Below are positions 6,776 to 58,859 of a DNA stretch of 64,000 bases, piece after piece. The notes below the pieces were generated by a model that searched no databases, was not told the DNA's origin, and was given only the letters and a program-made list of their open reading frames with translations. The translations under genes and the position numbers were made by a program. The stretch's first letter is position 1. Each line of letters starts with the position of its first letter. Source of the stretch: Burkholderia metallica (GTDB lineage: Bacteria > Pseudomonadota > Gammaproteobacteria > Burkholderiales > Burkholderiaceae). The stretch lies in the NCBI RefSeq assembly GCF_902832845.1, contig NZ_CADFDB010000003.1:62001-126000 (forward strand). Direction: 5' to 3'.

Positions 6776-7023
6776 GAAAATTTTTGACGATCGTTTTATC
6801 AAAAAAGCGCTAATACCATTGGAATCGGTACACCATCGCCGGTGATTAATTGGCTCGCATCAAAAACCTGTCAATATTACCGGGGTCGAAGTATCGATAA
6901 TGTCGGATGTGAAATTCCTACCGGGGACAAATCGATTCGGTAAATTCCTCGGGGTTTTTTCCGGTTGCGGAAATGCAGGGACATTGCGATGCTGACTCAA
7001 CGCCTGAAGGAAGGAGAAGGGTC

Positions 7024-7287
7024 ATGTGGCTGGACGGAATCAAGCGCTTCGCGAGCCGGCTCGGACGCGTACGCCGCAAGTCCCGCGGACTGGCCGAGTC
7101 TGCGCGCGAAGCGCCGTGCGACACCGAATTCGATACGACGTGGCACGGCGATCACTGGCAGAACCTGCTGGCCTCGCCGCTCGATGCCCGTCATTACGTG
7201 ATGGAAGACTGGACCTACACGCCACCGCCCAGCGAAGCCAGCGACGCCGCGCCGGCGGCCAAGCGCAAGCGCCGCTCGTACACGTAA
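7024..7287 (+). CDS. Hypothetical protein, 87 aa
   Basis: Not recognised. The N-terminal 27 residues are strongly basic (WLDGIKRFASRLGRVRRKSR). The middle is acidic and aromatic (DTTWHGDHWQNLL, YVMEDWTYTPPP) and the end is basic (KRKRRSYT). No signal peptide or membrane segment. AAGGAGAAGGG ends 3 nt before the ATG at 7024, a strong ribosome site, which is why I chose it over the ATG at 6973. The A/T-rich 6780-6980 presumably holds its promoter. The candidate small RNA at 7307-7390 converges on it from the other strand, 20 nt past its stop. Confidence 0.65.
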   Translation: MWLDGIKRFASRLGRVRRKSRGLAESAREAPCDTEFDTTWHGDHWQNLLASPLDARHYVMEDWTYTPPPSEASDAAPAAKRKRRSYT

Positions 7288-7306
7288 TCGCACGGGTGGC
7301 CGGGGC

Positions 7307-7390
7307 AAAAAAAAGCGCGACTGGGAAGTCGCGCCGACAAAGGTTTGGAGATCTTTTCCGTCAACGAAAAAGTCTGCTTCGGAAAGCAGA
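7307..7390 (-). ncRNA. Candidate small RNA, three hairpins with intrinsic terminator
   Basis: On the minus strand three hairpins follow one another. Hairpin 1 (7390-7373) is TCTGCTT/AAGCAGA with a 4-nt loop. Hairpin 2 (7372-7353) is CTTTTTCG/CGGAAAAG with loop TTGA. Hairpin 3 (7334-7315) is GCGCGACT/AGTCGCGC with a 4-nt loop, followed by eight T (7314-7307). The -10 box TATACT is 6 nt before hairpin 1, so the predicted RNA starts at the first base of hairpin 1 and is about 84 nt. The linker between hairpins 2 and 3 (7352-7335) is unpaired and contains TCTCCAAAC, the exact complement of the porin ribosome site at 7773-7781. No coding frame of merit lies in it. Confidence 0.7.
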
Positions 7391-7396
7391 GATCGC

Positions 7397-7402
7397 AGTA
7401 TA
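7397..7402 (-). promoter_or_regulatory. -10 box of candidate small RNA
   Basis: Minus-strand TATACT at 7402-7397, one mismatch to consensus, 6 nt upstream of the predicted 5' end. No convincing -35 box is seen at 16-18 nt spacing (ATAATG or TAATGA), so an activator or a different sigma factor is possible. Confidence 0.5.
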
Positions 7403-7788
7403 GCGAGAGAACAACCTTTCATTATCCATGCTCCACACAAACCTCTATTGCCGATGTGTCAATAATCGCGCTATGCCCTCCCCCGCCTTTTGCTGACCAC
7501 GTGTCGCGATCGCGCAACGCCCGTTCCGTAGTCCTGAACGCTATTTTCTTTCGCTGCACCGCCGCAAACCCTTGATGGACAACCGTTTTCGCCATTTCGG
7601 CCATCTTTGCGGATTCCGAAATGTATTATTGCTTAAAGCGCAAGCTTCCCCCGCTCCACGCACTCCGTACACTGCAGATGGCTTTTGACAAGCGCACCGC
7701 TGCGCTGCGGGACCGGCCATGGCGTCAAGTAAAACGAGGCCAGTCCGCAGCAGGTTCGATCGACATCATCCTGTTTGGAGACAGATCC
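7403..7788. other. Intergenic region upstream of the porin gene
   Basis: 386 nt between the small-RNA -10 box and the porin ATG, more A/T-rich than the coding sequence. It must contain the porin promoter and leader, but I could not assign a clear -35/-10 pair. Two short open frames here lack ribosome sites. The porin frame itself is open back to 7621 but that stretch does not look like protein. Confidence 0.4.
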
Positions 7789-8940
7789 ATGAAAAAAACC
7801 CTGATCGTCACCGCGTTGTCGGGTGTATTCGTTACGGCAGCCCACGCCCAAAGCAGCGTGACGCTCTATGGCCTGATCGACGCAGGCATCACCTATACCA
7901 ACAACCAGGGTGGCCACAGCTCATGGTCGGAACGCAGCGGCCAGATCAACGGCAGCCGTTGGGGCCTGCGCGGCACGGAAGATCTCGGCGGCGGCCTCAA
8001 AGCGATCTTCGTGCTGGAAAACGGCTTCAACATCGCCAACGGCACGCTCGGCCAGAATGGCCGCGAATTCGGCCGTCAGGCGTTCGTGGGCCTGTCTCAT
8101 GACCAGCTCGGCGCCCTCACCCTCGGTCGCCAATACGATAGCGTCGTCGACTACATCGGGCCGCTGTCGCTGACCGGTACGCAATTCGGCGGCACCCAGT
8201 TTGCCCACCCGTTCGACAACGACAACCTGAACAATTCGTTCCGGATCAATAACGCGGTCAAATATACGAGCGTCAACTACGGTGGCCTGAAGTTCGGTGC
8301 GTTGTACGGCTTCTCGAACAGCAGCCAGTTCTCGAACAATCGCGCGTACAGCGCGGGCGTGTCGTACACCTACGCCGGCTTCAATATCGGCGCTGGCTAC
8401 CTGCAGTTGAACAATGACATCTCGGGCCTCACGTCGGCCGCGGTCACCAACAGCGGCGGCGCGGTGGCAGGCGACAACACGTTTGTCGGCAAGCGTCAGC
8501 GCGTGTTCGGCGGCGGCCTGAACTACACCTTCGGCCCGGCAACGGCCGGCTTCGTGTTCACGCAATCGCGCGTGAACCGGGCGCTCGGCATCTCCGCGGG
8601 CGCCTCGGGCGTGTCGACCGGTCTGGGTCTCGACGGCACGTTTGCCCGCTTCAACAACTACGAAGTGAACGCGCGCTACGCGCTCACGCCAGCCTTGTCG
8701 CTGGCCGGGTCGTACACGTACACCGCCGGCTTCCTGGACGGTCGTCATCCGGGCTGGAATCAGTTCAACCTGCAGACCGACTATGCGCTGTCCAAGCGGA
8801 CCGACGTGTATGTGCAAGGCGTGTATCAGCGCGTCAGCACCGACGGCCTGGGCATCGGCGCCTATGTCAACGGCCTCGGTGGCGCGTCGTCGACCAACAA
8901 GCAGATCGCGGTCACGGCCGGCTTGCGCCATCGCTTCTGA
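7789..8940 (+). CDS. Gram-negative general porin (Omp38/OmpC type)
   Basis: 383 residues. Signal peptide 1-20 ending AHA, then the typical mature start QSSVTLYGLIDAGI. The whole length reads as beta strands with loops, with family phrases GSRWGLRGTEDLGGGLKAIF and RQAFVGLS, and ends in HRF with the C-terminal Phe required for outer-membrane assembly. It forms a trimeric 16-strand channel for small hydrophilic solutes. ATG at 7789 is preceded by TTTGGAGA, GGAG 8 nt upstream. This same ribosome-site stretch (7773-7781) is perfectly complementary to the unpaired linker of the small RNA encoded about 400 nt upstream. A strong terminator follows. Confidence 0.95.
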   Translation: MKKTLIVTALSGVFVTAAHAQSSVTLYGLIDAGITYTNNQGGHSSWSERSGQINGSRWGLRGTEDLGGGLKAIFVLENGFNIANGTLGQNGREFGRQAFVGLSHDQLGALTLGRQYDSVVDYIGPLSLTGTQFGGTQFAHPFDNDNLNNSFRINNAVKYTSVNYGGLKFGALYGFSNSSQFSNNRAYSAGVSYTYAGFNIGAGYLQLNNDISGLTSAAVTNSGGAVAGDNTFVGKRQRVFGGGLNYTFGPATAGFVFTQSRVNRALGISAGASGVSTGLGLDGTFARFNNYEVNARYALTPALSLAGSYTYTAGFLDGRHPGWNQFNLQTDYALSKRTDVYVQGVYQRVSTDGLGIGAYVNGLGGASSTNKQIAVTAGLRHRF

Positions 8941-58263: not shown

Positions 58264-58611
58264 TCAGATCATCTCCCATGAACATGACTCGTGCGGCTCG
58301 CTCAGCTCGGTGGCGAGACAGGTAACGCGCCGCGGAATCACGACGCCGCACGCTTTGGTTGGGGCGTGCAGACATCGGGGAAACGGTATAAGTACCGTTC
58401 GAGGCCACGGTGTAAGAGGGCCGGCACCTTCGCACATTGGGCGAGGCGGGCATACGCGGTGGCACCCACGCAAAAAACCAGCGTCTGGTGGCGCTGGCTG
58501 AGACTACGACTAAGGCCGTCGGATACGCCGTGCAGGATTCGGCGGACGGTGACGCGCTGCGTCAAAGATCGGTGATTGGCGGCTCGAAGCCTTTTACCCT
58601 GCAGCCAATGT
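58264..58611 (-). promoter_or_regulatory. Long leader of the transglycosylase gene
   Basis: About 348 nt of predicted 5' untranslated RNA. Small minus-strand frames inside it (58338-58565) have no ribosome site. A terminator-like hairpin at 58472-58497 lies about 115-140 nt from the predicted start, dividing the leader into a 140-nt 5' RNA and a 208-nt remainder. Confidence 0.45.
58472..58497 (-). terminator. Intrinsic terminator-like hairpin inside the leader
   Basis: Minus strand: CCAGCG, 8-nt loop, CGCTGG, then six T (forward A at 58472-58477). Could be an attenuator or the 3' end of a roughly 140-nt small RNA starting near 58611. Confidence 0.55.
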
Positions 58612-58617
58612 GAGCGG

Positions 58618-58645
58618 ATTCTAGCAGGGTTTTATAGATCGTCAA
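58618..58645 (-). promoter_or_regulatory. Promoter upstream of the transglycosylase leader
   Basis: Minus strand: TTGACG (forward 58640-58645), 16-nt spacer, TAGAAT (forward 58618-58623). It sits in an unusually A/T-rich patch (58615-58695). Predicted start near 58611. Confidence 0.7.
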
Positions 58646-58859
58646 CACTATAAAATCTCAAAATCATAACAAAAAGTAATTTTGAATTGCTCTTCAGAAC
58701 GCAATCCCCGTGCCGTAGGGGGTTTGCGCGCGATCGACTTTTTTCTGCGCCGGGCGGGCTTGCGGCGGCGCGGGTAAAATCGTCGGTCGATTCGGGGCCG
58801 CAGCCGGCGGCTGCGCCCGCCCATCGCTGCCCGCCGTGCGGGTGGCCCGGACCTTCTTC

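Follow-up and report, generated by a model that had tools for sequence, protein, structure and literature searches.

The RNA encoded at 7390–7307 on the minus strand of the window, the 64,000-nucleotide stretch of Burkholderia metallica DNA analysed here, is NcS25, an already published Burkholderia sRNA and not a new one. Sequence comparison and published experiments together indicate that NcS25 very probably acts on a distant porin mRNA, that of the BCAL3473 orthologue, and that the match of its linker to the adjacent porin probably has little or no regulatory effect. Rfam family RF02869 (ncS025, Burkholderia sRNA 25) matches positions 7306–7390 with 114.1 bits, against a gathering threshold of 46, and the match spans the full model (1–85 of 85). 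This answers the question, left open when the locus was read from its letters, whether the RNA is a catalogued Burkholderia sRNA, and annotators can now name it correctly. In Burkholderia cenocepacia, ncS25 is among the biofilm sRNAs detected by dRNA-seq; dRNA-seq and Northern blot gave a transcript of about 84 nt, and the Northern band was missing in the deletion mutant (PMC5688073). The window also holds a second catalogued Burkholderia sRNA, Rfam RF02422 Bp1_738, at 58471–58679 on the plus strand (225.9 bits). The features of the ncS25 locus are as follows.

7307–7390, minus strand: ncS25 sRNA gene, 84 nt (Rfam RF02869 and fold)
7373–7390, minus strand: hairpin 1 (fold; one pair with a compensatory change)
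7353–7372, minus strand: hairpin 2, abutting hairpin 1 (fold)
7336–7352, minus strand: open linker with the seed TCTCCAAAC (fold, ensemble)
7314–7335, minus strand: terminator hairpin, then a T run (fold; compensatory changes)
7398–7403, minus strand: -10 box TATACT (sequence)
7421–7466, minus strand: conserved promoter-upstream block ATTATTG...AATAGAGGTTTG...TAAT (conservation upstream of the -10)
7773–7781, plus strand: GTTTGGAGA across the adjacent porin's ribosome site, complementary to the linker over 9 nt; probably without function as a target
7789–8940, plus strand: adjacent porin gene, 383 aa, in the position of BCAL3008
7024–7287, plus strand: small ORF that converges on the sRNA and takes the place of BCAL3007, a conserved hypothetical protein (identity by position only)

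The sequence-only reading of this locus had described a minus-strand TATACT, three hairpins and a T-tailed terminator, and both the sequence and the fold at 7390–7307 bear this out. TATACT occupies 7403–7398, and seven bases separate it from 7390. The fold energy of the sRNA was -30.9; shuffled sequences averaged -22.0 (z -2.5), and 2 of the 200 reached an energy as low or lower. Two extents needed correction. A terminator does stand at 7334–7315, where it had been placed, but its stem runs from 7335 to 7314 and is one pair longer. The linker, given as 18 unpaired nucleotides at 7352–7335, is open from 7352 to 7336: in the ensemble 17 of its 18 bases are 78–100% unpaired, but the 18th is paired in the terminator stem. 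RNAalifold was applied to 37 sequences in a MAFFT alignment with indels, from which 3 of the 39 divergent loci had been left out as near-identical to a kept row. The consensus had four pairs in hairpin 1 and eight in the terminator, and 4 of these 12 pairs showed compensatory changes, three in the terminator and one in hairpin 1 (G-C to A-U in 4 of the 37 sequences). Hairpin 2 was absent from the consensus fold of this alignment, probably because the indels misalign it.

The sRNA was found in all 61 genomes of the same genus and in 0 of the 40 others in our sample of relatives (61/101). In the family sample 163 of 299 genomes had it (153 above the family cut-off), and these belong to 8 of 25 GTDB genera; in the order sample 4 of 399 genomes had it, all four inside the family. 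Burkholderia, Paraburkholderia and Pandoraea have been named as holders of NcS25 (PMC10117139), and the sRNA is also present in two Trinickia records. Two genomes (G173 and G255) have two RF02869 matches each, not one. The seed TCTCCAAAC was retained in 34 of the 37 aligned sequences and in 36 of the 39 divergent loci. Our statement on linker conservation rests on these model-found loci, since the linker invariance in L084–L193 is by construction; those loci were found by the exact linker pattern.

TATA[ACG]T or TACACT stood at the expected distance from the sRNA in 175 of 180 loci, although the conservation of these letters is partly by construction because the pattern itself was the anchor; the 5 loci without an anchored -10 were left out. 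A Sigma-70 promoter scan gave no canonical -35 at the ncS25 promoter. Conservation continues upstream of the -10: over 139 distinct sequences, columns between -70 and -1 carried 0.58 bits of information on average and those between -160 and -71 carried 0.21, in an alignment in which about one fifth of the rows, the window row among them, are one base out of register. The elements ATTxTTG, AAxAGxGxTTTG and TAAT keep a near-fixed distance from the -10 in Burkholderia; of the six other genera compared, five share this arrangement and one, g51, departs from it. The full pattern occurs once in the genome, at the ncS25 locus. The block is without mention in the parts of PMC10117139 consulted, and our guess is that it may be an activator site. 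A LysR-type dyad, TTG-N9-CAA, was considered within the block and rejected; it is present in the window and in four other Burkholderia loci checked, but of 39 loci from other genera just 3 have it at that place, and two more have it with an N8 spacer. The presence of the sRNA in 8 of 25 sampled genera and this conserved block are small additions to known facts.

In B. cenocepacia, NcS25 represses the porin BCAL3473 through pairing at the Shine-Dalgarno site (PMC10117139), an assignment repeated in a review (PMC10987360). In the ncS25 deletion strain, BCAL3473 mRNA was up 83-fold in planktonic culture and 27-fold in biofilm; native NcS25 restored the repression, but a linker mutant did not (PMC10117139). 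A translational reporter responded only slightly, and translation block as the first effect was inferred by the authors (PMC10117139). Five other predicted targets, including the adjacent porin BCAL3008, were reported to show no significant change; for BCAL3008 this was seen by qPCR in the deletion strain in both planktonic and biofilm growth (strain J2315; PMC10117139, Table 1). The sequence-only reading had proposed that the sRNA represses the adjacent porin in trans. The trans-acting mechanism, in which a linker meets a ribosome site, is the published one, but the target is not, as BCAL3008 was unchanged (PMC10117139).

We therefore turn to the porins of the B. metallica genome, in which 51 genes, the adjacent porin included, match the adjacent porin at E 1e-10; a few weakly similar ones with doubtful start codons were retained. 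One of them, at G000:C3:578142-579290, lies on the same contig about 509 kb from the sRNA, encodes 383 aa and is 97% identical to its copy in a named B. cenocepacia genome. That copy has a mass of 39.90 kDa, and its TTGGAGATC begins at -14. The published BCAL3473 protein has 383 aa and 39.91 kDa, with the left edge of the interaction at -14 (PMC10117139). Length, mass and match position strongly suggest that the distant porin is the BCAL3473 orthologue. Its ribosome site is complementary to the linker over 9 nt in the B. metallica genome. The orthologue was found in 58 of the 61 same-genus genomes at E 1e-150, and all 58 leaders had a match of 8–12 nt through GGAG (28 were read by script, two by eye and 28 were fetched separately). 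Three of the 61 have the sRNA without the orthologue at this strict limit, and in one Burkholderia-titled genome the best match falls just short of it. The best orthologues of the named genomes (Burkholderia and Paraburkholderia) had the 8–12 nt match as well, in 10/10 cases, three of them at places already counted. Among the 47 distant-porin loci, three had no called start, namely L204 and L216, which are the two read by eye, and L238, which is a paralogue. The seven lower-ranking loci (L233–L239) are paralogues or Trinickia, with a match in 1 of the 6 that have a start. The best porins of the two Trinickia genomes were 64% identical with no match and 52% identical with a match of 9 nt.

Target prediction, which had been suggested as a check on the adjacent porin, did not place it at the top of the 51 porins. 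By co-folding with the sRNA it ranked 22nd, whereas the BCAL3473 orthologue ranked first with -21.5 kcal/mol. In the predicted duplex with the orthologue, the linker pairs with the ribosome site and the 5' arm of hairpin 2 pairs with the start-codon region. The same comparison in 10 of the 12 named genomes, the two Trinickia being left out, gave predicted binding of -15.1 to -23.2 for the orthologue, while the adjacent porin reached -4.1 to -7.8, values 0 to about 2 sd from shuffles; in B. cenocepacia its value was -7.2, and the shuffles averaged -4.4 (sd 1.8). As a separate observation, a porin that carries GTTTGGAGA before AUGAAAAAG (L040, G000:C2:356408) is the second best predicted partner of NcS25 among the 51, with -18.1.

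The surroundings of the sRNA are those described for B. cenocepacia. A porin gene lies upstream on the other strand, and a gene for a hypothetical protein converges on the sRNA; the converging gene was followed in the window only, and a porin stood upstream of the sRNA in 39/39 divergent loci. The converging ORF was listed from an upstream ATG at 6973, and the ATG at 7024 follows a GGAG-type site. Synteny with BCAL3007 and a terminator common to NcS25 and the converging gene have been reported (PMC10117139). As had been claimed, the linker sequence TCTCCAAAC is the exact reverse complement of 7773–7781 over the porin ribosome site, and seven bases lie between GTTTGGAGA and the porin ATG at 7789. 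GGAG(A) is an ordinary ribosome site, so it is mainly the preceding GTTT that is informative in this 9-nt match.

We followed the adjacent leader across genera. A broad comparison of 140 loci took the longest complement at any place in the leader, where many 6-nt values arise by chance; from it we dropped 9 loci without a called start, as well as L019 and L179, whose start was wrong. In these two the adjacent-porin start is out of frame inside a homopolymer run, which reflects a sequencing error or a broken gene. The counts that follow take only complementarity that runs through GGAG. Those by genus name are based on the 80 titled loci of the 110 found, 5 of which had no called start (3 Paraburkholderia/Trinickia and 2 Burkholderia). 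Among titled loci with a called start, 21 of 30 from Burkholderia had a run of 8 nt or more, and 20 of these 30 retained GTTTGGAGA itself. In Paraburkholderia and Trinickia, where both loci are kept, the 9-nt match is lost, the run being 4–6 nt in 45/45 loci; this is the outcome that the sequence-only reading had itself set against its proposal. The 39 divergent loci, which come from six other genera, had runs of 4–7 nt, the 7-nt cases being the 4/4 loci of one genus (g48).

We reject the adjacent porin as the main target, on the published qPCR (PMC10117139), the shorter match outside Burkholderia and the low predicted binding. The leader of B. cenocepacia NCTC13227 (L148) is identical to that of the window over the last 30 bases ahead of the ATG, and the identity extends through the first 24 bases of the gene. 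Thus, strain differences aside, the negative qPCR of BCAL3008 in J2315 bears directly on the 9-nt match. Because qPCR reads mRNA levels, it would miss any effect on this porin that is confined to translation. The adjacent porin might accordingly be a real second target, gained within Burkholderia and regulated at translation only or under other conditions. A perfect 9-nt match to an open linker, its retention in two thirds of the Burkholderia-titled loci (20/30), the recurrence of these nine bases ahead of 4 of the 51 porins and the conserved synteny are in its favour. We regard this as unlikely, because BCAL3008 mRNA showed no significant change in either of two growth modes (PMC10117139) and the predicted binding is only 22nd of 51, in B. 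cenocepacia less than 2 sd below the shuffle mean. Furthermore, the conserved block of the adjacent leader within Burkholderia extends beyond the pairing bases (e.g., CAGATC), so pairing alone cannot account for the conservation of the leader.

Most likely, the 9-nt match at the adjacent porin reflects a ribosome-site motif that is common to several porins. That such a motif stands there without any regulation is likely, and is compatible with NcS25 acting on the distant porin. Ribosome sites of the GGAGA type are frequent in the 51 leaders, and the qPCR of BCAL3008 was negative (PMC10117139). In addition, the 39 divergent loci retain both the linker and the adjacent porin, yet their match shrinks to 4–7 nt. 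The distribution of GTTTGGAGA within the genome is less easily reconciled with a motif only. GTTTGGAGA-N3-12-ATG occurs 7 times, compared with 1 for a backward-read control, and four of the seven sites precede porins, the adjacent porin included. GTTTGGAGA is thus commoner than chance both before porins and before starts overall. Paralogy or a common ribosome-site habit may explain this excess, although weak regulation common to these genes may also contribute.

From sequence, we infer that the repression mechanism of B. cenocepacia carries over to the B. metallica genome. NcS25 would be made from its own promoter and end at its hairpin-plus-T terminator. The open linker would start the pairing with one distant porin mRNA, that of the BCAL3473 orthologue, at its ribosome site, and the 5' arm of hairpin 2 would open and pair with the start-codon region of the same mRNA. 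This pairing would block translation and lower the mRNA. It is quite improbable, in our estimate, that NcS25 of Burkholderia in the narrow sense has in addition gained weaker, translation-only porin targets with GTTTGGAGA (the adjacent one and up to three more) and that its promoter answers to a regulator site at 7421–7466; if this were true, the ncS25 locus would act as a hub controlling the porin mix of the outer membrane. The two porin leaders differ in their evolution, and this contrast is independent sequence support for the published choice of target. The case also warns that a short match to a ribosome site is poor ground for assigning an sRNA to the gene next to it. The sequence-only reading rediscovered a published sRNA and guessed the mechanism rightly, but was probably wrong in taking the neighbour as the target.

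Compared with NcS25 of B. cenocepacia, the window RNA matches the whole model and has the same 84 nt, three-hairpin shape, linker and terminator, and its neighbouring genes and distant target sequence are also the same; we found no difference of substance. Enterobacterial MicF, MicC and OmrA/B are trans-acting sRNAs that bind porin mRNAs by pairing close to the ribosome site. NcS25 resembles them in being trans-acting and in pairing near the ribosome site of a porin mRNA, a likeness in mode and not one based on sequence, whereas the pairing seed of NcS25 sits in an internal linker.
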